Below, piece after piece: positions 970 through 59,973 of a stretch of 64,000 bases of DNA; positions within the stretch are counted from its first letter, which is position 1; every line of letters begins with the position of its first letter. Both the position numbers and the translations under genes were made by a program. Source of the stretch: Veillonella sp. DNF00869 (GTDB lineage: Bacteria > Bacillota > Negativicutes > Veillonellales > Veillonellaceae); NCBI RefSeq assembly GCF_001553345.1, contig NZ_KQ960771.1, forward strand, positions 136,215-200,214, given 5' to 3'. A model generated the notes under the pieces. It was not told the DNA's origin. It saw nothing but the letters and a program-made list of their open reading frames with translations, and did no database searches.

Positions 970-1914
970 TTATAATTGCTCTTTCACACCATAAATGATC
1001 TTAACTAATTCAGCCATAGCTTCTGGTGTTTCTAGTCCAGGGTTCAATAAGAACCATTGGGATGGTAAGAAGATGACTTTGTTATGTTTCACAGCTTGTA
1101 ATTGATTCCAAGCTGGGTTACTAGTCATTTCTTTGGCAAAGGTTGCATTGATTTCATCCTTTTTACCCATGGTAACAACAAGGATGATATCAGGGTTGTC
1201 TACTGTTAATGTTTCTAAGGAATAAGGCACTGTTTTAGAAGTCACATTATCTTTTAAATGTTGTTCGACAACATTGGTAATGCCTAATTCACGAATCATA
1301 GACGCTGTGATTGCTAGTGGTGTTTCTGCTGTTACCGATTTACCAGTAGCTCGCAATACAGCGACTTTGACAGGTTTGTCTTTTGGAATCGAGGCTTTCA
1401 CTGTATCGATTTTTTTATTGTAATCTTCGATGACAGATTTGGCCTTATCTTCTGTATGGAAAATATTGCCCAATAATGTTAATAGTGGAATGTTATCATT
1501 GATGCCATCGTAATTAATTAGAATAGATGGAATATTATTGCTATCTAGCTGCCCTTTAAATTTTTCATGTTGGCTAGGTAAACCTAATACTAAATCAGGA
1601 TGTAGACCAACTAATTGTTCCATATTAGGATTGGCTGTATGTCCTATGCTTGGTAATGATTCAATTTCACTAGGTAATTTTTCATTACTTTCAACACGAG
1701 CGATGGCTTTGCCACCTACAGCATAGATCATTTTGGAAATCGAATTAGATAAAGCTACTACCTTGGATGGGTTAGTAGGAATTGTGTAGGACTGATCTTG
1801 GTAAGATACAGTACGAGTTGTTTCTGTTGTAGTAGGACCTGTTTTCGTACATCCACCTAGTAAAAGAGAAGTGGAGAGTAGAACAGCACTACAAATTTTT
1901 AAATATGTTTTCAT
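970..1914 (-). CDS. ABC-transporter substrate-binding lipoprotein, BtuF/FhuD (Peripla_BP_2) type
   Basis: A 314-residue extracytoplasmic solute-binding protein. The N-terminus is a lipoprotein signal with lipobox LLGGC, Cys22 being the expected lipidated residue. The body has the two-lobed class III binding-protein pattern: an early PSKVVALSNS segment, then the PNMEQLVGLHPDLVLG motif typical of iron-siderophore, haem and cobalamin binders. Family members deliver such ligands to an inner-membrane ABC permease, but no permease or ATPase gene is visible here. It lies 74 bp downstream of the secreted CbiK-like gene on the same strand, so the two probably form one transcript. The ligand is not determined by sequence; haem, another tetrapyrrole or a corrinoid fits the context. 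The ATG at 1914 has a weak Shine-Dalgarno, suggesting coupling or lower translation. Confidence 0.85.
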   Translation of the reverse strand: MKTYLKICSAVLLSTSLLLGGCTKTGPTTTETTRTVSYQDQSYTIPTNPSKVVALSNSISKMIYAVGGKAIARVESNEKLPSEIESLPSIGHTANPNMEQLVGLHPDLVLGLPSQHEKFKGQLDSNNIPSILINYDGINDNIPLLTLLGNIFHTEDKAKSVIEDYNKKIDTVKASIPKDKPVKVAVLRATGKSVTAETPLAITASMIRELGITNVVEQHLKDNVTSKTVPYSLETLTVDNPDIILVVTMGKKDEINATFAKEMTSNPAWNQLQAVKHNKVIFLPSQWFLLNPGLETPEAMAELVKIIYGVKEQL

Positions 1915-1988: not shown

Positions 1989-2984
1989 TTATTTTACTAA
2001 TGCATCATATGCTTCAGAAGCACGTTCAGCAAAGATATCACGGATTTGTTGGTTTTCACCAGCACCATGGATGTAAGTATCTACAGTGAAGCCTTCTTTC
2101 ATAAGGATGCTTTTGTGTGAATCAGGTTCGTCACCAGCCATGTCGTTGTTTGCATGGTCACCAGCCACCATCATTAATGGCATTAATGTAACGTGTTTGA
2201 TACCTTTTTCTTTTAATTGAGGGATTACTGTTTCAAGGTTTGGCCATCCTTCAACTGTGTAAAGGTATGTATTTTGGAATCCCATGGAATCGATACGATC
2301 TTGGATTACTGCATAGTACGCATTAGATGGATCTGGAGTACCATGAGCCATGATCAATACAGCAGAATCTTTTGTTTGGATCATAGGGAATTGGGAAGAG
2401 TATGCTTTTAATGCTTGTTCAATATCATCGCGTTGTTCTTCTTGTCCCATCCAGTACATTAAAGGTAAACCTAATGTCATTTTTTTGAAATCTTGTTTAT
2501 GATGGTTGAATACAGCGCCAGCATAGTTATATTCCATACCTGGAATCATATTTAATGTTGTTAAAGCAACACGAGTGTATCCATCAGCTTTTAATTGGTC
2601 TAATGCTTCTTCTGGAGTAGGGTATGTAATACCTTCATGGGCTTTAATGCGATCAATGATAATATGGGATGTGAAAGCAGTGACTACTTTTACATTTGGA
2701 TGTTGTGCTTTGATTTCATTGATAGTAGCATCAATTGTTTTTGCACGAGTATCTTTGAAAGTAGTGCCAAAGGACATAACTACGATAGCATCTTTGTTCA
2801 TAGCATTTTTCATCATTGGATTTTCGTATGTACGAACACCAATGGAAGCTGCTTCTTGTAATGCTGGAGTTGCGTCTTTTACTTCAGCATTTAACATGTA
2901 CGCCGCGTCAGTAGATTGAGATACGCCGAAAGCTGCAGTTACTGCTAATGCCGCAATCATAGCGCTTTTAGAAAAGAACTTCAT
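1989..2984 (-). CDS. cbiK: CbiK-type sirohydrochlorin cobaltochelatase family protein with signal peptide
   Basis: 331 residues with a cleavable signal peptide (about residues 1-28, ending TDAA) ahead of a full CbiK chelatase domain. Family CbiK enzymes insert cobalt (or iron) into sirohydrochlorin. The two-lobe pattern is visible: VVMSFGTTFKDTR near the N-terminus, VTAFTSHII, and the second-lobe IMAHGTPDPSN containing the expected metal-site His. A later metal-ligand-rich segment is VAGDHANNDMAGDEPDSHKS. The signal peptide would place it in the periplasm. Periplasmic CbiK homologues are known in Desulfovibrio (CbiKP), and a chelatase-like haem-binding protein (IhtB) accompanies a TonB receptor in Porphyromonas. 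It has a good AAGGAG ribosome site and a consensus promoter. A role in haem or cobalt handling outside the cytoplasm is inferred; cytoplasmic B12 synthesis is the alternative. Confidence 0.88.
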   Translation of the reverse strand: MKFFSKSAMIAALAVTAAFGVSQSTDAAYMLNAEVKDATPALQEAASIGVRTYENPMMKNAMNKDAIVVMSFGTTFKDTRAKTIDATINEIKAQHPNVKVVTAFTSHIIIDRIKAHEGITYPTPEEALDQLKADGYTRVALTTLNMIPGMEYNYAGAVFNHHKQDFKKMTLGLPLMYWMGQEEQRDDIEQALKAYSSQFPMIQTKDSAVLIMAHGTPDPSNAYYAVIQDRIDSMGFQNTYLYTVEGWPNLETVIPQLKEKGIKHVTLMPLMMVAGDHANNDMAGDEPDSHKSILMKEGFTVDTYIHGAGENQQIRDIFAERASEAYDALVK

Positions 2985-3680: not shown

Positions 3681-6600
3681 ATGACGACAAATCGTAGAAA
3701 GCAACAGAAATACTTCATGCTATCATGTGCGATTGCTACATGGATAGCGCTACCAGGTTTAATGTATTCCAACTCAGTACAAGCTGAGGGGTCTGTATAT
3801 GTTACAGCTGATAGAGCTCATGAAGAGGCTAAATATAACTCACAACAAGTGAGTATTATTACTAAAAAGGATATTGAACAAAAACAAGCTAAATCAGTAG
3901 AAGATATCATTTTCACTGAAAGCGGTGTATCTCGTACAGTAGACTCCATGGGTCGTGTAGGTGTATCCATTCGTGGTGCAGAAGCCCGTCATACTTTGAT
4001 TTTAGTAGATGGTCAAGCTGTATTAGGTGACTTGGCTAAGTTCAGTGGTGCAGCTGATGAAGTTATGCGCTTAGGCACAGAGAACGTAGAACGTATTGAA
4101 ATCGTACAAGGTTCTGCCAGCGCTAAATATGGATCTGATGCCATTGGTGGTGTTGTTAATATCATCACTAAAAAAGCAGCTAAAAAACCAACCATCCAAA
4201 TCAATGGTGAAGGATCTCGTGCGAAGGGTGGAGAACCTGGCTATCGTAACTCCAACTTCTTTATGCGTGCCGACTCTGGACAAATGGGTAAAGTCCGGGT
4301 AGCTATCTCTGGTAGTAAACGGGATATTTTACCTGTATATGCTACGCAAGAAAGAAGAGATACAGGAGATAAATTAGAAGGCGAATTTAAACCAAATGTA
4401 CTTCGTTTCTATGGTGACACGTCGGATATTGGACTAAATGCGATTTATGATATTAATAAAGAAAATAATATCCAAATCCGTTTAAACCGCTATACAGAAG
4501 ATTTACAACGTGATGTAAAACATAGTACATCTCCGTTTGAGCCACAACGTCATTTCAAACGTGATAGTAATCGTAACACCATGAATATGATTTGGAACGG
4601 CCGAGGTGGCGCTAGTGATTGGAAATTAGAATTGAATCATTCTCGTATTAATGAAAATGATATATCTTTAATTAACTACACTGGTCGTTCTCAATATGAA
4701 GGTAAGAATGAATTGAAGTATATTGATGATGTTGATCATCGTCAAACTGATGTCCGCTTCAATGCAAATTCAGCTATTGGGGACAAACACACATTGAGTT
4801 GGGGTATTGCGCAAACCCATGAAACTGGTTTTGGTAGCCGATTAAAAAGCTCTCCAAATGTAAAAACTCGATACATTGATCCATGGGATTACGATAAGAA
4901 CTTATTAGTAGCCGGAGTGGACCGTCTAGAGCGTCGCCCTGGAGACAATAGTTTACGTATTTATTCTCATATTCACGACTATAAATTTAAACCAGGCAAA
5001 GATAGTTTACCAATTTGGGATAAAGATTATGAATATTATGGTGTGGAAAAAGAAAGTGATGTTCCACCGATTACATATGAATATTTCCGAGAACATAAAT
5101 TAGATGATCCTAAAGAAAGTACCGAGCCATATAATTCGTACAATAATTTATCTAAATTTGATGTAGATGATGCACATTGGAAAAAAATTGTTGAATTTAA
5201 TGAAGCTTTGAAAAAAGAAAATAATCTTCAAGGTGCTTCTTCGGTGTATGTAAAATACTTTACACAAGGGGAATCTTTAGATCCAGCTGAACGTGCGAAA
5301 GCACCAAAATATAAAGGTGTCAAATTCCTCGAAAAATACCGTGAACGCGAACAACGTATCACAGAAGGGGAAGGCACTATCAACAAGACAAATGTGTATT
5401 TATCTGATGCATGGCAGGTTAATAAAGACTTGCTAGTACAACCTACGATTCGTCTCGATAAGAGCAACTTATTTGGTAGCCACGTATCCTGGAATTTAGG
5501 GGCTACTTATAATGTAAATTCTAATGCTCATCGTCGCTTGAAAGTCAATGTAGGAACAGGCTATGCTGAACCAGGTATGGGTGAATTGTGGTATAACTGG
5601 CAAATGTTTGGTTCTAACCCAGTAGCACAAGGCGTAGCTAAAATGGGATGGTACTGGGCAGGCAATCCTAATTTAAAACCAGAAACATCAAAAAATATTG
5701 ACATTAGTTTTGAAGGAGAAGGCAAAAATGACTATGCTCGCTTTGGCATTTTCCAAAATCGTATTACTAACTACATGTCTGTATACTTTACAGGAGAATT
5801 ACAAGATTGGGCTCCACAATTATCGAAACAAGATAAATGGATGCAAGCACCTGATTTAATCTATAGCTTCAAAAATATTGGAAAAGCTAAGATAACAGGG
5901 GTTCAATTAGAGTGGAAACATAAATTTGGCAACCATTGGAGTACACGCTTTGGTTGGACTCGTCTACAAGCGTTGAACCAATCTGATCCTACTATGCCAA
6001 GTCAATTATTAGATCGTCCAACAAATAAAATTGATTTTGGCATTACCTATGAAAGTAAAAAATGGAATGCACAACTTTGGGCAGATTACTATCATAAAAT
6101 GCTTGATAGTAACACACAAAAAAATCGTTCCAATTACTGGATTAGTGGCATAGATTCTGACAGTGCTATTTACAATGTGTCTAATGAATACGAAGAAAAA
6201 TCCTACGGTACATGGAATGCGATGGTACAACGTAAATTTGGCGATGATTCCTTAGTATACTTTGGTATTAATAATATCTTTGACCATCGTGATGATGACA
6301 GAGCTACCCAAGCTCGTGTGTACCGTTTTGGTGTGAACCTTAAATTCGGTGCTGGTGGTGCACATAAAGATGCAAATGCGAAAGCACAAACCCCAGGTAC
6401 ATCGAATAATAGTACAGGATCTACAACAGCGATTTCACAAACTCAAGTTGATACTGCATTAGCTAGAATCAATGGCGATGATATGGGACATAGTCATCAC
6501 TTCTTAGATCGTCCATTTGATGCAAATAAAGAAGTAGGCACTCAATTTATCGGTGATTACCGTGCACGCTTAATGGCACATGGTGGCTCTGAACGTCCAC

Positions 6601-8915
6601 AATCCTTGTATACAAGTACTTCTTATGTAGGAAGTGCTGAATATAACTTAAAAGATCAAAGAGAGCATGGCCTAGAACAACGCATTCGTTTTGGTGTAGA
6701 TGCAAAAATCAATGACCATACGAATGTGAAAGTATTAGCGAGTGCAAGTGGTACTCACTCCGTAGATACTGCAAGCACGACAGTTAACTCACAAGGACTT
6801 AATAAACAACGATTGGAAAACTTGGACGTAACAAATTCTAACGGACGTTGGGATTTCTCTATCGGTCGTTTATCTGAATCTATGGGTACCACAGGATATT
6901 GGTTTAATAAAACGTTTGATGGTATTCGTGCTGTTTGGACGGACCAACGCAATCAATTCCGTACTGGTATCGGCTCATTCAAAGCAAGCACTGGTATTAC
7001 AGACTCTGCGTATAGCCATAGCACATACTCTACATACTTTAGAGCTCCAACAATGGAAGAATTTATTGGTTTAAATCACTTATATCCATATGATAATGAT
7101 AAAGCGATGTTAGCTGATAAATGGGGTGTTGTACCTGAAGTAGATGGTAATAAAGTGGCTGGTGAAGGGTCACCAATGGATATATACCTTAGAGAATTTA
7201 AAGGTAAAAATGAAAACCTTTATTTCATGGAGCAATTGAGTGATGTTGATAATTCAATGCCTAATGCTACTGAGGAAGAAAAAATTGCTAAGCGCACAGA
7301 GATTATTCAACGTATGGCTAATATCTTAAGCCAAGCTTATCCAGAACTTATCAAAAATCATAATATTTCATATAAAGTTGCTGAAAGCCCGGATAATATA
7401 CACGTCGTTTATGAAGTAGAAGATGAAAACCATAATGTAGGGTATTTAACATCAACGATGGCTCTATATTATGATTCTAATTTTAGCCCAGATCGTATCG
7501 ATGAAAAAGAAGATTCTGCTGTGATAAAAGCTTACAAAGAAGAAAAAAATAAAGTCTTGGGTGAATTATATCTCAAAGAAAAGCCTGAATTAAATAAACG
7601 GTTTGGCACAACATTAGATAATGCTAATATTCTTAATTCTAACTATATAGATAATCATAAAGAGGAATTTGAATCAGCTTATTCTAAGGTTGCTGAATGG
7701 GTAGCTAAAACACACTTTAATAGCATATACTTATACCAAAGTGATGAACGGGAGAAAACTTTAAAAAATATTATTAATGGACAATTAACAGGTTTTTCCA
7801 CAAAAGTTGTTGCAAAATCATTATTACCTAAAACAATGGATATTGATAAATTAACCAATCCAGTAAAGAACTTTAAGTTTAAACGAGTCGTAGGAATAAA
7901 GAAACTAGGAGCTTATGATTTTGCTACTAGTACAAAAAAAGCGGATGATGTTAATGTTGTTGATGAATTAAAGGCTGCAAACTTTAGTAATAGTGATAGT
8001 GAATATAGCAAGGGTGATGTAACTACAATTGCACGAGAATATTTATCGTTATTAAAGCTTGCAGTTGAAGAATCTGAACAAGGTAATACATTACCTCGTG
8101 CCGCTTTAGAAAAAGTAATTGGTAAACCTGTCAAAGTGACTGGTTTAAAACTAGAACGTGATACAATTCCAGCTATTGATAAAGCTGTGTTTGCTCAATA
8201 TAAAACACAAATCAATCCACGGTTAGGTATTCAAGCATGGTTCTTACGCTCTTTGAACAATAATGAACACACAATGCAAGCTGGTCATGCAAAAACTAAG
8301 ATGGAAACACATCGAGATGTGGTAGGACATGCTAATGATTACTATTCAACACCTATTTACGGGGATGTAACATCTGAAGTACCAGACTTAACAAATGATA
8401 CATACACAACAAATCGCTTGGCAAATATATTTGCCATCGGTGCACAATATCAATTAGGTCATAATGCGTTACTTTCCTTAGATTATGGTTTGAATCGCAG
8501 TGATTTCGGTCGTTATATGAACGGTCATACAAACTTTGATCATGTACGAAATACAGCTGACTTCACAGTGAAAGGTCACTCTATGGGGGGTACTCCACAC
8601 TTCTGGACTGCTCGTCTTGACATCGGTCAATCTGATTACACAAGACCTGGTAGCTGGAATGCGTTCATGGATTACAAATACTTTGCCCATGGTTCCTTCT
8701 TCGGTGGTAATGGCACAGGTGCAGTACCTGATCGTTACTTAGATGGTATCCGCAGCTTTACATTAGGTGGTGGTTATGTTCCTCGTAAAGATTTATTACT
8801 AGAAGCATTCTATACATTTGATGCGAAGAGTATTGGAGAACGTGATACATTATACGGTGCAGAAAACTTTAAATTAGGTAACTACACTCGTATTCAAGGT
8901 ACTTACAAATTCTAA
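3681..8915 (+). CDS. Giant TonB-dependent receptor fused to a second porin-like beta-barrel (paralogue 1)
   Basis: 1744 residues. Signal peptide 1-35 (cut after SVQA), then a TonB-box-like EGSVYVTA. A plug domain (about 45-165) has the motifs SIRGAEARHTLILVDG and IEIVQGSASAKYGSDAIGG. A first barrel then ends with a classical receptor C-terminus (FGINNIFDHRDDD, then RFGVNLKF) at Phe889. The chain does not stop there. A Gly/Ala/Thr-rich linker (about 890-915) leads to a second beta-rich region resembling Negativicute porin barrels (GRWDFSIGRLSESMG, DGIRAVWTDQRNQFRTGIGS), ending at a second terminal Phe (YTRIQGTYKF). An AT-rich, charged, non-barrel insert occupies about residues 1130-1480. Such receptors import iron chelates, haem or cobalamin using TonB energy. 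Each half ends in an apparent beta-signal, so this may be a two-barrel outer-membrane protein. The ATG has a GGAG site 8-10 nt upstream. Confidence 0.92.
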   Translation: MTTNRRKQQKYFMLSCAIATWIALPGLMYSNSVQAEGSVYVTADRAHEEAKYNSQQVSIITKKDIEQKQAKSVEDIIFTESGVSRTVDSMGRVGVSIRGAEARHTLILVDGQAVLGDLAKFSGAADEVMRLGTENVERIEIVQGSASAKYGSDAIGGVVNIITKKAAKKPTIQINGEGSRAKGGEPGYRNSNFFMRADSGQMGKVRVAISGSKRDILPVYATQERRDTGDKLEGEFKPNVLRFYGDTSDIGLNAIYDINKENNIQIRLNRYTEDLQRDVKHSTSPFEPQRHFKRDSNRNTMNMIWNGRGGASDWKLELNHSRINENDISLINYTGRSQYEGKNELKYIDDVDHRQTDVRFNANSAIGDKHTLSWGIAQTHETGFGSRLKSSPNVKTRYIDPWDYDKNLLVAGVDRLERRPGDNSLRIYSHIHDYKFKPGKDSLPIWDKDYEYYGVEKESDVPPITYEYFREHKLDDPKESTEPYNSYNNLSKFDVDDAHWKKIVEFNEALKKENNLQGASSVYVKYFTQGESLDPAERAKAPKYKGVKFLEKYREREQRITEGEGTINKTNVYLSDAWQVNKDLLVQPTIRLDKSNLFGSHVSWNLGATYNVNSNAHRRLKVNVGTGYAEPGMGELWYNWQMFGSNPVAQGVAKMGWYWAGNPNLKPETSKNIDISFEGEGKNDYARFGIFQNRITNYMSVYFTGELQDWAPQLSKQDKWMQAPDLIYSFKNIGKAKITGVQLEWKHKFGNHWSTRFGWTRLQALNQSDPTMPSQLLDRPTNKIDFGITYESKKWNAQLWADYYHKMLDSNTQKNRSNYWISGIDSDSAIYNVSNEYEEKSYGTWNAMVQRKFGDDSLVYFGINNIFDHRDDDRATQARVYRFGVNLKFGAGGAHKDANAKAQTPGTSNNSTGSTTAISQTQVDTALARINGDDMGHSHHFLDRPFDANKEVGTQFIGDYRARLMAHGGSERPQSLYTSTSYVGSAEYNLKDQREHGLEQRIRFGVDAKINDHTNVKVLASASGTHSVDTASTTVNSQGLNKQRLENLDVTNSNGRWDFSIGRLSESMGTTGYWFNKTFDGIRAVWTDQRNQFRTGIGSFKASTGITDSAYSHSTYSTYFRAPTMEEFIGLNHLYPYDNDKAMLADKWGVVPEVDGNKVAGEGSPMDIYLREFKGKNENLYFMEQLSDVDNSMPNATEEEKIAKRTEIIQRMANILSQAYPELIKNHNISYKVAESPDNIHVVYEVEDENHNVGYLTSTMALYYDSNFSPDRIDEKEDSAVIKAYKEEKNKVLGELYLKEKPELNKRFGTTLDNANILNSNYIDNHKEEFESAYSKVAEWVAKTHFNSIYLYQSDEREKTLKNIINGQLTGFSTKVVAKSLLPKTMDIDKLTNPVKNFKFKRVVGIKKLGAYDFATSTKKADDVNVVDELKAANFSNSDSEYSKGDVTTIAREYLSLLKLAVEESEQGNTLPRAALEKVIGKPVKVTGLKLERDTIPAIDKAVFAQYKTQINPRLGIQAWFLRSLNNNEHTMQAGHAKTKMETHRDVVGHANDYYSTPIYGDVTSEVPDLTNDTYTTNRLANIFAIGAQYQLGHNALLSLDYGLNRSDFGRYMNGHTNFDHVRNTADFTVKGHSMGGTPHFWTARLDIGQSDYTRPGSWNAFMDYKYFAHGSFFGGNGTGAVPDRYLDGIRSFTLGGGYVPRKDLLLEAFYTFDAKSIGERDTLYGAENFKLGNYTRIQGTYKF

Positions 8916-9286: not shown

Positions 9287-9363
9287 ATAACAGATATAAT
9301 AAAAGTAATTTGAATTTATTTCTCAAAAAAATGTATAATTTTGAGTTTAGGAGGAGGTTGCCA

Positions 9364-12300
9364 ATGACAAGGAAAGGTGAATCAACAAAGAAATACCTTA
9401 TGCTTTCCTGTGCCATTGCTACATGGATTGGGGGCGCAAGTTTTCTAGTTCCAACAGTAGCGCATGCAGAAGGGTCTGTATATGTAACAGCGAATCGTGC
9501 ACAAGAAGAGGCTAAGTATAATTCGCAACAAGTACAAATTATTACTAAAAAAGATATCGAAGCTAAGCAGGCTAAGTCTGCGGAAGATATTGTATTTAGT
9601 GAAACAGGTGTAAGCCGTACTGTGGATGCCATGGGTCGTGTTGGTGTATCCATTCGTGGGGCAGAGCCTCGTCATACCCTAATCTTGGTAGATGGTCAAC
9701 CTGTAATGGGTGACCTATCGAAATATCAAGGTGCTGGTGATGAGTTACAACGTCTTGGCACTGAAAACTTAGATCATATTGAAATTGTACAAGGTGCAGC
9801 GAGCGCTAAATATGGTTCCGATGCTATGGGTGGTGTCATTAATGTGATTACTAACAAGCCACGCAATAAAGCGGGTCTTCAGTTAAATGTAGAAGGCATC
9901 CGTGAGCGAGGTGACGGCAACAGTACACCAGCTACGAACGTCTTTGTCCGTGCCGATTCTGGTAAAATGGGCAAAGTAAAAGTAAATATCTTTGGCAGCA
10001 AACGAGATATTATGCCTATTTATGCTAGTGAAAGACCTAGAGCAGATTGTCTAGGAGCTGATGATACGGTAGACCATGGGTTCCTTAAAAACTCCTTGCG
10101 TTACTATGGTACAAATGCGAATGTAGGTGTGGCTAGTATTATAGATGTGAAAGATAATCAAACGATCAGCATGAAGCTAGATCGTTATCGTGAAGATTTA
10201 GAGCGCTATGTGAAAAATAGTGATTCTTTCATGGTCCCACAAATGCATTACAAACGTGATTTAAATCGTAATACTATGAACTTAACTTACGAAGGTAGAG
10301 ACGATGTATCCAACTGGAAAGCGGAAGTTAACTATACTCGTACCAATGAAAACGATTTAACGTTGAGCAGTGACTATGGTAAAAGCACCTATGAAGGTAA
10401 AAACACTTTAGAATACACAGATAATATTGACCACAGACAATGGAACTTTGGCATTTCTGGAGATATTCAAGCCAACGACAATCACCTAGTATCTTATGGT
10501 GTTGGCATGTCTCGTGAAACAGGTACAGGTAGCCGTTTGAAAAATGCACCGCATACCTATGTACGTGATATAGATCCATGGGATTACGATAAGAGTCTAT
10601 CTGTAGACCGAAATGGTGTTCCAAAATCTAACATTTATGACTATTCTTTTGGTAAGAATAAAGATGGTATCATCGAACGAAATAAAGAAAAAGAGTGGTA
10701 CAACACAGATAAATCCAATGCAAACAGTAAAGTACCTGAGTTTACCTATGAAGATTTCTTGAATTATAAAGAGAAGTTGACGGAAGGAGATCCTGCAGCC
10801 GCTAGAACATGGATTAATGGAGTTAACCCTAATACATTAGAAAAAAAATACCCTGAAGCATATAAAAAATACTTAGAATTTGCCAATACACTAAAAGAAA
10901 TTAATAGAGCAGATTTGATTGAGTTTAATAAAAAGCAAACTAGTAATAGTGATAAAGTAGATCTCGACTCAAGATATGATGTAGCATATTTACCATTGTA
11001 TTATTATGATAATACAGTTAAACCAAAAGTTAGTGAAGTCCTTAAGCTAAACGGTGCTACTTTCAAAGAAGAAGCTAACAAACGTATCAATAAACAAACG
11101 GTCGGTACTGGTACTATTAATAAACAATACCTATTTATACAAGATACTTGGCAATTAAACAAGAACACAATCTTAAATCCAATTGCTCGCTTTGACCATA
11201 GCAGCTTGTTTGGATCTAATTTATCTTTCAATATGGGCGTAACGCATAATTTGAATGGCAATACACATCGCCGTTTGAAAGCTAACGTGGGTAGTAGCTA
11301 TGTAGAACCAGGTATGGGTGAATTATTCTATAACTGGCAAATGTTCCCATCCCATATTACGGCATTTAGTTTAAATGGTGGTGAAGCTCGTCTTGGTTGG
11401 TATTGGCAAGGTAATCCTAACTTAAAACCTGAAAAATCCATTAACTTTGACGTATCTATTGAAGGTGAAAATAAAAATACCTACAGTAAATTGACTGTAT
11501 TCAGAAATAATATAGATAATTATATTACTGCTTATAATACAGGACATATCTTAGACTTCCATACAGATTTGAATGAAAATACAGAACGAGGAATTTATAA
11601 ATTCTTATATGCTCCAGATATGATTTACAGCTTTAAAAATATTGGTAAAGCAGAGATTACTGGTCTTGAATGGGAATTAAAACAAAAACTTTCCAATAAA
11701 TGGAAAGCTCGTTTAGGCTATACCTATTTACATGCTATCAACAAGAGTAATCCAGATATGCCACGTCAATTGTTAGACAAACCGACTCACAAAATTGGTA
11801 TTGGCGTAGATTACGAAGATGAAAAAACAGGTTGGTCTGGTAGCCTCTGGAGTGATTACTACATCAATATGTTAGATAGTAACTCCGTATCTGGTGGTGG
11901 CGGATATATGACATCAGGTACAGCCTATGAAAGAGATCCAATTACAAAAGCTATTGTACTTGATCCTGTTACAAGAAAAGCTAAGAAAATAGAAGGTAAA
12001 TCTGAAATTTCTTACTCTGGATCTGACCGTCGTACTAGCGATATGTATGAACGTAAAACATATGGCATTTGGAATATGATCGTTCAAAAGAAAATCAATA
12101 AAGATTCCCGTGTGTACTTCGGTATCAATAACATTTTTGACCATCGTGATGATGATCGTGCTCTTTCTACACGCCAATTCCGTATGGGTATTAACTTGAA
12201 ATTTGGTAGCGATGCTAATACAGGTAGTGGTCAACCGAATACGGCTACAGTAGAAGTAAAAACACGAGTGATGGATCCAATGGATTCTTTCATTCACCGT

Positions 12301-14616
12301 GATTTCGATGAAAATAAACCAGAAGGTGTGTCTTTCGTTGGCGATTACAGAAACCGTTGGGATAGCCATTTAGGCTTTGACCGCCCAACTAGTCGTGTAA
12401 CAGCGACTAGCTATATTGACAATGATGCGGTAGAAAACCTTCGAGATACAGATAATCATGGATTTACATCCCGCGTTCGTGCTGGCGTAGATGCTCGTAT
12501 TGGTAAAGATGTGGATGTGCGTGTTGTAGCTAGCGCTAGTGGTCAAGCTGGTGTAGATACAGATCATCATGTTACAGTGACAAAAGGCTTTAACCATCAA
12601 CGGATTGATGAAGCGACGATAACAAAGCATACTAACAAATGGGATATCACTGCAGGTCGCATGACAGAGCCAATGGGCGTCACTGGATATTGGTTTGGAA
12701 AAGAATACGATGGTATTCGTGGTGTTTGGACAGATGATACGAAACAAGTTCGTGTCGGCTATGGTGATTTCTCACATAGCACAGGTGTAACAGATTCTGC
12801 CTATACACATGCTATTTATAACGCATTTAAACGAGCTCCAACTGTTGATGAATTTATGGGAGTTAAAACTAGCTCAGGTGGCGGTAATGAAGAGCTTAAT
12901 ATTGAAAATGCTGGTAATACCATTGGATTCCATAAACAGCTAGAAGTCATAAAAGAAGACGAGAAAAAAGCAGTCGAAGCAGCTACAGATGTTATTAATA
13001 ATGCGGGAGAAGAAATAAACTCTAAAATTGATGAGATAACTAATGAATTAAATACATTTAAAGAGTCTAATGCTTACAAGGAATATAACGATAAAAAACT
13101 TGTTTTAGATGATAAGATTAGTAAAATTAACGATGAGATTGCAGATGGAGATCCTGAAATTGGAGATAACCCACTACCGGAAGAAAAATTTAATGCATTG
13201 CTTGAAAAAAGCAAAGAATTAGATAAAGAGAAGTCAGATTTAAAAGTAAAATACAAATCTGTGATTGATGAAGAAAATAGATTTATTAGTAAACGTAACG
13301 ATTTAGAGGCTAGTAAAGAAGATAGTAAAGAAGCAAAAAGAAATGAAATACGTAAGCCATTTATAGACAAACAATTTGAAGTTTTAAAACGAATGACTGA
13401 TTTAGCTAATCAAGGATATAGTGATGCTTTATCAGAAAAAAATAAACTTAGAATTGAGATTCCTGAAGTCAAATTACCAGTATTAGAAAATGGCAATATG
13501 GATAAAAAAGTTTCTGTAGATCCAACTGGCTCTTTAAGTGATAAAGATAAAGCATTATTTGATATACCGTTAAATACTCCAGGGTTATTAGATAATGGCG
13601 GTATAACATACCTATCAAAATGGTTTGATACTAATAAAGATAAAATAGCTACTATTTATAAATCAGCTACAAATGAATCTATTGTACTTGATAATCAGGT
13701 GATGAGTAACTTAAAAGAGCGCTTTATTTATGAAAATATTTATAAAGAACATTCTGGTCAACGTGGACTGTTAACAGGAACTTCTAATGCATATTCAAGA
13801 ATGTTAGTATCATTTTTTGATAATATGAGAAAAACTTTAACAGAAGCTGACCACTACAGTAAACTTCCTCGTGAAGCTTTAGGCAATGCGACAGGCAAAG
13901 TCATTCCAACGGAAGGTGTTATTATCCAACGTGATGTAATTCCTGCTGTTAAACGTGCTGGTTTTATCCAATATCGTCAACAAGTAAATAATAAATTAGG
14001 TGTCACAGCTTGGTACTTACGCTCTACAGGCCATGAAAATCATACTGTACATTATACAAGCGATAACGGAAATGAGTCTCGCAGCTTTGGTCGTTTAGCG
14101 AATGTATTTGGTTTAGGCTTAAAATACCAAATTGGTGATAATACAGCTGTATCTTTCGACTATGGTCAAAATAGAACAGACTTCGGTCGCTATATGAATG
14201 GTGGAAGTATCTATCAATCTACAGCAGGTAAAGTATATGATAATCCAGCAGGTAATCCTCAATTTGAATTGAAAGGTCATAGAACAGGTGGTACTCCACA
14301 CTTCTGGGCACTTCGTTTTGATGTAGGTCAATCTGATTACTACCGTCCTGGTAGCTGGAATGCATTTATTGACTACAAATACTTCGGACATGGTGCTTTC
14401 TTAGGTGGTAATGGCACAGGAGCTGTACCAGATCGTTACTTAGATGGTATTCGTAGCTTCACATTAGGTGGTGGATATGTACCAGCGAAAGATTTCTTAG
14501 TAGAAGCATTCTACACATTCGATGCAAAAGGTATTGGACAACGTGATACATTATACGGTGGAGAAAACTTTAAATTAGGTAACTACACTCGTATCCAAGG
14601 TACGTACAAATTCTAA
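9364..14616 (+). CDS. Giant TonB-dependent receptor fused to a second porin-like beta-barrel (paralogue 2)
   Basis: 1750 residues from the ATG at 9364, chosen because AGGAGG lies at 9350-9355 and a canonical signal peptide (1-35, cut after VAHA) begins there; a TTG at 9310 would add 18 non-signal residues. Organisation matches the upstream paralogue: TonB-box-like EGSVYVTA, plug (VSIRGAEPRHTLILVDGQ, then IEIVQGAASAKYGSDAMGG), and a first barrel ending in RMGINLKF at about residue 947. A linker and a second porin-like barrel follow, ending YTRIQGTYKF. The plug and both barrel ends are very similar between the two proteins, so they arose by duplication. The insert in the second barrel (about 1176-1380) is instead a Lys/Glu-rich probable coiled coil. 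The ligand is unknown. The neighbouring secreted chelatase and binding lipoprotein suggest iron, haem or corrinoid. Confidence 0.92.
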   Translation: MTRKGESTKKYLMLSCAIATWIGGASFLVPTVAHAEGSVYVTANRAQEEAKYNSQQVQIITKKDIEAKQAKSAEDIVFSETGVSRTVDAMGRVGVSIRGAEPRHTLILVDGQPVMGDLSKYQGAGDELQRLGTENLDHIEIVQGAASAKYGSDAMGGVINVITNKPRNKAGLQLNVEGIRERGDGNSTPATNVFVRADSGKMGKVKVNIFGSKRDIMPIYASERPRADCLGADDTVDHGFLKNSLRYYGTNANVGVASIIDVKDNQTISMKLDRYREDLERYVKNSDSFMVPQMHYKRDLNRNTMNLTYEGRDDVSNWKAEVNYTRTNENDLTLSSDYGKSTYEGKNTLEYTDNIDHRQWNFGISGDIQANDNHLVSYGVGMSRETGTGSRLKNAPHTYVRDIDPWDYDKSLSVDRNGVPKSNIYDYSFGKNKDGIIERNKEKEWYNTDKSNANSKVPEFTYEDFLNYKEKLTEGDPAAARTWINGVNPNTLEKKYPEAYKKYLEFANTLKEINRADLIEFNKKQTSNSDKVDLDSRYDVAYLPLYYYDNTVKPKVSEVLKLNGATFKEEANKRINKQTVGTGTINKQYLFIQDTWQLNKNTILNPIARFDHSSLFGSNLSFNMGVTHNLNGNTHRRLKANVGSSYVEPGMGELFYNWQMFPSHITAFSLNGGEARLGWYWQGNPNLKPEKSINFDVSIEGENKNTYSKLTVFRNNIDNYITAYNTGHILDFHTDLNENTERGIYKFLYAPDMIYSFKNIGKAEITGLEWELKQKLSNKWKARLGYTYLHAINKSNPDMPRQLLDKPTHKIGIGVDYEDEKTGWSGSLWSDYYINMLDSNSVSGGGGYMTSGTAYERDPITKAIVLDPVTRKAKKIEGKSEISYSGSDRRTSDMYERKTYGIWNMIVQKKINKDSRVYFGINNIFDHRDDDRALSTRQFRMGINLKFGSDANTGSGQPNTATVEVKTRVMDPMDSFIHRDFDENKPEGVSFVGDYRNRWDSHLGFDRPTSRVTATSYIDNDAVENLRDTDNHGFTSRVRAGVDARIGKDVDVRVVASASGQAGVDTDHHVTVTKGFNHQRIDEATITKHTNKWDITAGRMTEPMGVTGYWFGKEYDGIRGVWTDDTKQVRVGYGDFSHSTGVTDSAYTHAIYNAFKRAPTVDEFMGVKTSSGGGNEELNIENAGNTIGFHKQLEVIKEDEKKAVEAATDVINNAGEEINSKIDEITNELNTFKESNAYKEYNDKKLVLDDKISKINDEIADGDPEIGDNPLPEEKFNALLEKSKELDKEKSDLKVKYKSVIDEENRFISKRNDLEASKEDSKEAKRNEIRKPFIDKQFEVLKRMTDLANQGYSDALSEKNKLRIEIPEVKLPVLENGNMDKKVSVDPTGSLSDKDKALFDIPLNTPGLLDNGGITYLSKWFDTNKDKIATIYKSATNESIVLDNQVMSNLKERFIYENIYKEHSGQRGLLTGTSNAYSRMLVSFFDNMRKTLTEADHYSKLPREALGNATGKVIPTEGVIIQRDVIPAVKRAGFIQYRQQVNNKLGVTAWYLRSTGHENHTVHYTSDNGNESRSFGRLANVFGLGLKYQIGDNTAVSFDYGQNRTDFGRYMNGGSIYQSTAGKVYDNPAGNPQFELKGHRTGGTPHFWALRFDVGQSDYYRPGSWNAFIDYKYFGHGAFLGGNGTGAVPDRYLDGIRSFTLGGGYVPAKDFLVEAFYTFDAKGIGQRDTLYGGENFKLGNYTRIQGTYKF

Positions 14617-14860: not shown

Positions 14861-15004
14861 AAGATTGCATTGAGATGCAAAAATTATCTATTATAGAATA
14901 AAAGTTACATCGAAATGCAAAAAGTAATTTATTTAAAATAAAGATTGCAATCAAATGCAATCTTAGTTAAAATTATAATAAAGATTACATTGTAATGTAT
15001 TTTT
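14861..15004 (+). repeat. Array of palindromes with exact 40-bp period
   Basis: Four copies of a 16-bp imperfect palindrome, consensus TTRCAT-N4-ATGYAA, begin at 14865, 14905, 14945 and 14985: exactly 40 bp apart. The copies read TTGCATTGAGATGCAA, TTACATCGAAATGCAA, TTGCAATCAAATGCAA and TTACATTGTAATGTAT, separated by 24 bp of A/T-rich DNA. Two shorter ATTGTGAT units at 14832 and 14851 precede them. The last copy ends about 75 bp before the ATPase start. Forty bp is close to four helical turns, so all sites would face the same side of the DNA. An operator or iteron-like protein-binding array is inferred. Confidence 0.7.
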
Positions 15005-15074
15005 GCAATATACTGAGAGTATGGATAACACTTTCATTGTATTGAAGGGTATCACAAATGATAGAGGAGTAGAC

Positions 15075-16283
15075 ATGAAGTTAATTAATAGGGAAAAGTA
15101 CATACAGTTTCTGAGAAATCACAGAGAAAAACGTGTTATAAAAATTGTGTCTGGCGTGCGTAGATGTGGTAAATCAACTTTATTTTATCTCTTTCAACAA
15201 GAGTTACTACAAGAAGGGGTAAATGAAAATCAAATCATCGCTATTAACTTTGAAGATTTGGAATACAGGGACTTAACGGATTATATACGGTTGTATGAAT
15301 ACATAAAATCCAAAATAATTCCTAATCAACAAATGTATATATTTTTGGATGAGGTCCAACATGTGCAAGGGTTCGAACGTGTGGTAGATAGTTTCTATAT
15401 TAAAGATAATGTAGATATCTATATTACCGGATCTAATGCGTACTTTATGTCTTCAGAAATAGCTACATTATTAGCGGGTCGATATGTTCAGCTAGATATG
15501 TTACCTTTATCATTTAAAGAGTTTGTTGAAGCACACAAAGAGACAACGAATCTATCTTTGAATGGTTTGTATCGTCTATTTGTAGCGCAAAGTGGTTTCC
15601 CAGGGACACTAGAATATGCTGGTCATGATGAAATGCTACATACCTATTTAGAAGGTATAGTCAATTCTGTAGTGTTGAAAGATGTTATGACACGCTTAAA
15701 GGGAAGCGATATTTTAATATTAGAAAGTATTATTCGGTATATTGCTGCCAACGTGGGAAGTTTATTAACACCTAAGAAGATAGCTGATTCTCTTACTAGT
15801 ATGGGAAGAAAGGTAGATAGTCGTACTGTAGAAAGGTACATAGCAGCACTGAGAGATGCATTGTTAATTTATGAAGCGTCTAGATTTGATGTGCGAGGGA
15901 AAGAACTGCTTAGATTATATTCTAAATTTTATTTAGTTGATCCTGGGCTGAGAAGATTTTTCGTACCTAATACAGGACGAGATACAGGTCACATTCTTGA
16001 AAATGTGGTGTATTTAGAATTATTGCGCCGAGGCTATACGGTTCATGTCGGTATCCTAAAAAATGGTGAAATAGATTTTGTAGCTCAGAAACATGGACTA
16101 TTTGAGTATTATCAAGTGAGTCAAAGTGTGTTAGACCCTACCACATTAGACAGAGAACTAACGCCTTTATTTGAGGTGAAAGACTATCATCCGAAATTTT
16201 TGCTTACTTTGGATGAGATTAATAGCAATGCATCTTATGAGGGAATACAACAAAAAAATGTGATAGAATGGCTATTGGAATAG
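15075..16283 (+). CDS. AAA-family ATPase with DUF4143 domain
   Basis: 402 residues from the ATG at 15075, preceded by GAGGAG at a proper distance; an in-frame TTG at 15003 would start inside the repeat array and is rejected. The Walker A motif is GVRRCGKST near residue 30. A Walker B-like FLDEVQ follows near residue 95, then ITGSNAYFM (sensor-like). The C-terminal half is a DUF4143 domain (FYLVDPGLRRFF, then ILENVVYLELLRRGY), whose end resembles a nuclease-like fold. Proteins of this class are widespread and often stand alone; their biological role is not established, though a link to mobile DNA or defence has been suggested. The upstream palindrome array may be its own control region. No partner gene is evident. 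Confidence 0.88.
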   Translation: MKLINREKYIQFLRNHREKRVIKIVSGVRRCGKSTLFYLFQQELLQEGVNENQIIAINFEDLEYRDLTDYIRLYEYIKSKIIPNQQMYIFLDEVQHVQGFERVVDSFYIKDNVDIYITGSNAYFMSSEIATLLAGRYVQLDMLPLSFKEFVEAHKETTNLSLNGLYRLFVAQSGFPGTLEYAGHDEMLHTYLEGIVNSVVLKDVMTRLKGSDILILESIIRYIAANVGSLLTPKKIADSLTSMGRKVDSRTVERYIAALRDALLIYEASRFDVRGKELLRLYSKFYLVDPGLRRFFVPNTGRDTGHILENVVYLELLRRGYTVHVGILKNGEIDFVAQKHGLFEYYQVSQSVLDPTTLDRELTPLFEVKDYHPKFLLTLDEINSNASYEGIQQKNVIEWLLE

Positions 16284-31242: not shown

Positions 31243-31301
31243 TTTACTATAAAAATCCACCATTCCATGCTATACTATAAACAAGTAAATATTTTAGATT
31301 T

Positions 31302-31391
31302 GCAAGGGAGCCTATGTAATAGGCTGAGAAAGGACTATGAAGTACCTGACCTTTTGACCTGATCGGGATCATGCCCGCGTAGGAAGCACGC
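31302..31391 (+). promoter_or_regulatory. TPP (THI-box) riboswitch aptamer
   Basis: The THI-box order is clear: GGGAGCC (from 31306), GGCTGAGA (31322-31329), ACCTGACC, TTTGACCTGATC (about 31353-31364), GGGATCATGCCC and CGCGTAGGAAGC. A TATACT -10 element lies upstream at 31271-31276. The aptamer binds thiamine pyrophosphate and represses thiC, the first committed pyrimidine-branch step. Two downstream hairpins form the expression platform. Confidence 0.95.
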
Positions 31392-31402
31392 TGACATATG
31401 TG

Positions 31403-43054: not shown

Positions 43055-43396
43055 TGGTGGAGACGAGGGGAGTCGAACCCCTGTCCAAACATGTTGCCCC
43101 CTAGACCTCTCCGAGCGCAGTTGATGTTTTTAACTTCGAATAGTGTTTGGACATCAACAACCTAAGCTATTCTAGCTCATGAGATTTAACTAGCTTTAAT
43201 TGAGCGGATAGAACTAGCTAGCCCGTAGTTTGACGCCACATCCCTCTCCACGGGCGAGAGAAGGTGTGACGTAGCTTATGCAGCTAATGCAAAATTTTCT
43301 TCTGCGTTTAATTTAAGTTTCACTGTTTTATGGTCAAGTGAGACACCAGCTCGCTTTCTAAGATACATCCATACCTGTCGAAACCTTTACGTCCCC
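43055..43396 (-). ncRNA. ssrA: Transfer-messenger RNA (tmRNA)
   Basis: About 342 nt on the minus strand. The 5' end GGGGACGTAAAGGTTTCGAC (from 43396) and the 3' T-arm/acceptor GGGGTTCGACTCCCC with terminal CCA (43055-43057) form the tRNA-like domain, with the CCA encoded. The tag reading frame ends ...NAEENFALAA-stop (codons from about 43308 down to a TAA at 43278-43276), close to the usual ENxALAA degradation tag. The RNA rescues stalled ribosomes with SmpB, whose gene is 3.5 kb away. It has its own consensus promoter. Confidence 0.96.
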
Positions 43397-59854: not shown

Positions 59855-59973
59855 AAGAACTTCTCGAGGTAGAAAATTTGTGGCCTCTACACAACTAGAA
59901 ATAGGATTGAGATGTGGGGTAAGCGACACCCACCGAGAAGTATAAAAACCACCTGCATAAGTAGGTGGTTTTT
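59855..59973 (+). ncRNA. Candidate structured small RNA with its own promoter and terminator
   Basis: About 119 nt. A closing stem ACTTCTCG (59859-59866) pairs perfectly with CGAGAAGT (59934-59941). Inside are a GTAGA/TCTAC hairpin (59869-59890), a small CTA-GAAA-TAG hairpin (59896-59905) and a GTGGG/CCCAC hairpin with an AAGCG-containing loop (59914-59933). An intrinsic terminator, AACCACCTGC with GTAGGTGGTT and a T-run, follows directly. There is no open frame of note. It does not match tmRNA, SRP RNA, 6S RNA or riboswitch classes I know. It lies within a duplicated module of small-protein genes. Confidence 0.55.

Follow-up and report, generated by a model that had tools for sequence, protein, structure and literature searches.

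A single open reading frame of Veillonella sp. DNF00869 (3681..8915, +; hereafter denoted ORF A) joins a TonB-dependent receptor to an OmpM-like porin in a protein of 1744 amino acids with an ATG start, and this chain very probably builds two outer-membrane barrels. The fusion frame is uninterrupted over 1744 codons in the ORF listing of the window (the whole stretch of 64,000 nucleotides that was analysed). The fusion, its conservation, the family and fold of the second barrel and the presence of a folded insert within that barrel are each observed directly or strongly supported by computation.

An initial annotation had reported that a receptor terminus, RFGVNLKF, is followed by 855 more residues; the motifs are present and the frame is open over the full length. 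It had overlooked a second gene of the fusion kind, ORF B (9364..14616, +), which the ORF list, Pfam matches and comparison with ORF A identify as a tandem paralogue of 1750 amino acids from its ATG, with a frame extending to an upstream TTG at 9310. ORF B is 41% identical to ORF A overall and appears, from sequence comparison, to be of equal build.

Architecture of the fusion chain

The N-terminal half of ORF A begins with a candidate signal peptide, assigned by eye (residues 1-35, ending ...VQA/EGS; 3681..3785, +), followed by EGSVYVTA (residues 36-43; 3786..3809, +), which from its pattern we take to be a candidate TonB box. The plug domain (residues 54-158; 3840..4154, +) scores 73.1 bits against PF07715 (cut-off 23.9). 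The TonB-dependent receptor barrel, with boundaries placed by eye at about residues 176-889 (4206..6347, +) and ending in RFGVNLKF, matches PF00593 (TonB_dep_Rec) over residues 542-866 with 112 bits (cut-off 27), the match reaching the end of the profile. The nearest solved chain to the receptor half by sequence is the colicin I receptor. Judged by these family matches, the first barrel would be a plugged TonB-dependent receptor.

A linker (residues 890-944; 6348..6512, +) connects the two halves and is predicted to be disordered, with pLDDT values below 50 across local residues 1-49 in an AlphaFold2 model of the C-terminal half (local numbers are counted within residues 890-1744). In the alignment of ORF A relatives, no other segment of the C-terminal half is so poorly conserved. 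Since receptor and porin barrels both begin and end in the periplasm, the linker is expected to be periplasmic.

AlphaFold2 folds the C-terminal half as a barrel, and not as the soluble domain that had been named as the alternative for this region. Strands 1-7 occupy residues 945-1099 (6513..6977, +), an enlarged loop L4, delimited by strand matching to OmpM, occupies residues 1100-1500 (6978..8180, +), and strands 8-16 occupy residues 1501-1744 (8181..8912, +), terminating in YTRIQGTYKF. The best structural match is OmpM1, and the predicted second barrel has the 16-strand porin barrel fold of OmpM. Sequence comparison with OmpM is co-linear, matching weakly at the start (local residues 59-209 against 110-242, E 0.022) and again at the end (725-855 against 283-416, probability 95, E 3e-8). 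When residues 890-1744 were scanned alone, Porin_5 (PF16930) scored above its cut-off in two stretches (26.4 bits against 22, E 3.2e-6); it was absent from the match list when all 1744 residues of ORF A were scanned. The proposal that the residues after 889 are porin-like and close with their own YTRIQGTYKF signal is thus borne out by Porin_5 and the AlphaFold2 barrel. Of the porin and SLH-porin profiles that had been suggested as a check of this region, the porin part held and SLH was not listed: it is not among the Pfam matches for either the whole chain or the C-terminal half, in scans whose HMMER filters discard the majority of matches weaker than E 0.1, whilst an OmpM control (L051) scores SLH at 41 bits.

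With the first barrel given by family matches and the second by Porin_5 and OmpM matches together with AlphaFold2, the earlier reading of two barrels in one chain stands, and ORF A can be counted as a multibarrel protein. Its second half is 18% identical, over the aligned part, to OmpM (V. parvula OmpM1, PDB 8bym/8bys/8byt; Porin_5). ORF A lacks the SLH domain and stalk of OmpM and has the TonB-dependent receptor in their place, and its L4 holds about 360 folded residues beyond those of OmpM. According to the available part of PMC10628300, the SLH region of OmpM lies at the N-terminus.

Loop L4 of the second barrel

The initial annotation had treated the 855 extra residues as barrel; a barrel is indeed predicted, but about 360 of these residues form a folded insert in L4 (residues 1122-1483; 7044..8129, +), which structure prediction gives with confidence. 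A search of this domain against the PDB returned no significant match. The corresponding insert of ORF B, located by sequence comparison with ORF A, spans about residues 1161-1513 (12844-13902, +). Strand parity in the model would place the insert outside the cell. AlphaFold2 also gives two additional strands in the second barrel (local residues 223-232 and 595-604); if both of these spanned the membrane, the strand count would rise to 18 and the insert would come to lie on the periplasmic side.

Among the folded parts of the chain, the insert changes fastest in 10 of the 11 homologues compared. Between ORF A and ORF B it is 28% identical, against 64% for strands 8-16, and comparison of ORF A with P0042, P0043, P0047 and P0059 gives 29-33% for the insert against 64-76% for the strands. 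The closest homologue, P0001, departs from this: there the insert is 95% identical and does not change fastest. The insert's length ranges from 287 to 367 residues across 30 rows of alignment A1. No His, Met or Cys of the insert is conserved in 80% of rows; two tyrosines, at 1220 and 1244, are invariant (45 of 45 rows), with some further conserved aromatic residues, although such conservation, read from sequence, is no proof of haem binding. A folded and fast-varying L4 domain suggests that the second barrel has a task at the cell surface besides leakage.

Distribution and genomic context

The five related loci among named genomes are all from Veillonella. A search with the C-terminal-half alignment, accepting matches at an E-value of 0.001 or lower, hit 21 of the 28 family genomes and 56 of the 380 class genomes (in the class, with at most two candidates scored per genome). 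In 41 of these 56 the C-terminal half lies in a frame of at least 1290 amino acids, including a G153 frame of 1293 amino acids which is a split copy. These long frames, together with the lengths of 1633-1807 amino acids found for 115 of 120 homologues listed (344 matches), argue that the fusion is not a product of chance or sequencing error. Among the 56, 13 match weakly (E 1.7e-12 to 7.6e-4) and likely include stand-alone distant porins; the G022 match is an SLH and Porin_5 protein (Porin_5 20.3 bits, below the cut-off of 22), and G008 has only a 103-residue frame among the matches listed.

Searches for proteins of stand-alone length in a set of 5.8 billion, each scoring about 8000 candidates, returned the same five proteins with a single sequence and with a profile. 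P0121 and P0122 are C-terminal pieces starting in the linker or strand 2, and the remaining three also contain receptor sequence; a convincing stand-alone gene for the C-terminal half is not found among the five. Where strong matches fall in short or split frames (L075-L078), the receptor half lies directly upstream in another frame in four of four cases. Split fusion frames in relatives (L040:4105-9094, L046:5941-10647, L075, L076, L077 and L078) may reflect frameshifts or errors of assembly. Elsewhere in the genome of L001 there is a third fusion frame, shorter at 1565 amino acids (L059; G001:C4:100000-110000), near a gene which by its first residues resembles a CobW-type metal chaperone.

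Across 12 genomes examined for the plug domain, frames of at least 1290 amino acids account for 26 of the 144 plug matches, and a check for a porin half covered part of these 26. Ordinary receptors are thus also numerous in these genomes, the fusion making up a subset. Three of the 26 are fusions in the opposite order, all in G333 (L066:4546-9837, -; L067:2415-7760, +; L068:3860-9163, -), in which a domain scan finds an Autotransporter beta-domain (109, 107.1 and 100.7 bits; cut-off 26) ahead of the plug and TonB receptor barrel in proteins of 1764-1782 amino acids. A junction-spanning query, with up to five candidates scored per genome, is matched over its whole length (beginning at residue 15 or earlier and reaching 355) in 18 of the 380 genomes of the class; domains were scanned in the three G333 proteins only. 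The opposite order would, on this sequence reading, again set a domain displayed at the surface next to a TonB importer.

Upstream of ORF A, and divergent from it, lies a CbiK-type chelatase (1989..2984, -; PF06180, 272 bits) whose N-terminus by eye resembles a signal peptide, and beyond this a periplasmic-binding protein (Peripla_BP_2; 970..1914, -; PF01497, 118 bits). The latter is closest to the haem-binding IsdE, at a score below the cut-off (TIGR03659, 141 against 298.65 bits). The order of the tandem fusions in the window, type A first, is swapped relative to L001, L005 and L045. The fusions are separated from a small gene by an AAA_14/DUF4143 gene (15003-16283); a frame of this size is absent there in L001-L005, L005 having a 183-residue frame instead. 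Elsewhere in the window, an Rfam scan found a TPP riboswitch (31294-31402), a tmRNA (43055-43396) and a skipping-rope RNA (59859-59941, 54.8 bits).

Gene context bearing on the ligand is seen at L045, where an AraC regulator is followed by two fusions, ExbB, ExbD, TonB, a haem-operon-type flavodoxin and HutW. The best L045 match of ORF A is the second fusion (49.7%) and that of ORF B the first (53.2%), in a comparison of fusion types across loci which leaves out the L059 row. Sixteen loci were taken for the context count, from which L051, having no fusion, is omitted. Among the 15 fusion loci that remain, L045 included, compared by blast with the L045 proteins, HutW occurs at four, ExbB with ExbD at five and flavodoxin at six, and only eight show one or more of these genes or TonB in the vicinity; HutW was not found at the other 11. 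L040, L044 and L045 pass the curated HutW cut-off, and in L043 HutW is a blast match. At L037, ExbB and ExbD adjoin a separate, ordinary receptor. Neither exbBD, tonB nor HutW was found in the first 20 kb of the window or in the scanned stretches of L001-L005.

ORF A shares the plug and receptor barrel with the haem/haemoglobin receptors (HmuR; TIGR01785, TIGR01786), and in several of its relatives the neighbouring genes suggest a haem operon. Unlike them, it has a second barrel, and it falls far below the NCBIfam cut-offs (119.2 against 316.85 bits for TIGR01785, 130.3 against 323.75 for TIGR01786). A further difference concerns the stretch from EPG to NPNL in the receptor half: haem receptors have a histidine there, whereas none is conserved in 90% of rows here. 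Veillonella dispar and atypica are among the organisms with hmuW/hmuF haem clusters in the accessible part of PMC10404700, which names the TonB-dependent receptor of the cluster HmuR and there makes no mention of a second barrel. We infer that the likeliest ligand of ORF A is haem or a haem protein.

A possible co-receptor and its alternatives

We propose that ORF A combines an N-terminal plugged importer with a C-terminal Porin_5/OmpM-type barrel of 16 strands, the two joined by a flexible periplasmic linker which would hold them at 1:1. In place of the SLH tether of OmpM, the second barrel would carry the folded domain of about 360 residues in L4, and its main role may be to anchor this domain beside the importer as a built-in co-receptor. 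The L4 domain would capture the ligand and pass it to the plugged barrel; the outward position of the insert, ligand capture, haem and hand-over are the parts that we infer. Taken whole, with haem as the likeliest ligand, this mechanism is a tentative one, its chances falling a little short of even. For a variable, folded domain that probably sits on the outer face and is held 1:1 to an importer, capture is the best reading, and the barrel would serve to anchor it. In Neisseria, TbpA-TbpB and HpuB-HpuA each consist of a TonB receptor with a separate, lipid-anchored surface partner; the proposed capture domain would, like TbpB and HpuA, sit beside its importer, but fused to it and anchored by a barrel.

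Other roles for the second barrel are conceivable. It may be the passive pore proposed in the initial annotation, an open diffusion channel which supplies small solutes, or releases a by-product, beside the gated channel, as its porin family and its match to OmpM1 (described as a porin of V. parvula in the available part of PMC10628300) would suggest; moreover, none of the ten segments compared is better conserved than loop 7 (mean entropy 0.20). We nonetheless regard a putative pore as unlikely, given that L4 holds a large, fast-varying folded domain and that the five Veillonella genomes sampled already have several OmpM-like genes, which leaves no clear need for another, fused leak. By analogy with OmpM1, the closest fold and a trimer according to the same part of PMC10628300, the second barrel might be a trimerising scaffold that gathers three importers around one porin core, a reading that we consider improbable.

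The remaining alternatives separate the second half from import or from the chain itself. Cleavage in the linker after insertion, yielding two ordinary outer-membrane proteins from one gene, would suit a segment that is disordered and poorly conserved, but the halves remain fused across many genomes, which is more than co-expression needs, and we hold this to be quite improbable. An insert that served as an adhesin or antigenic decoy, variable at the surface and with no link to import, would fit the rate of change seen in 10 of 11 homologues; the constrained length and confident fold of the insert, and the finding that all carriers found with the full gene are TonB importers, make this very doubtful. 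A lost stop codon or assembly error joining two genes has next to no chance of being correct, and is ruled out by the equal fusion in many genomes and by the tandem paralogue.

In the titles and abstract openings of the literature searched, a TonB receptor-porin fusion was not found described. Multibarrel outer-membrane proteins were reportedly the subject of Solan et al. (2021, PNAS). The available parts of PMC11494523 and PMC8592465, which cite Solan et al. 2021, treat such proteins as known, and GfcD, like ORF A, has two membrane barrels per chain; GfcD is, however, a proposed polysaccharide exporter with 12- and 13-strand barrels (PMC11494523, same part), whereas ORF A would pair an energised importer with a porin. 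For V. parvula, the accessible portion of PMC5491611 gives nine TonB systems in the genome, six of them seen in outer-membrane and surface fractions, and at least five TonB family proteins named in its outer-membrane proteome table; that of PMC10665443 describes envelope machines which lack several lipoprotein parts. It is possible, if doubtful, that lipoprotein-poor diderm Firmicutes have at least twice fused an importer to a barrel displaying a capture domain with a fold not in the PDB, once with a porin behind and once with an autotransporter in front, and that the porin version is a trimer with three importers.

Veillonella is a genus common in humans. The insert of about 360 residues is a confidently predicted domain with no significant counterpart among solved structures. 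If the reading of ORF A is correct, Veillonella and its relatives would carry in their outer membrane a covalent importer-porin pair, whose natural 1:1 tether would make co-receptor hand-over directly testable and whose internal and terminal beta-signals would allow a test of how two barrels are inserted from one chain.
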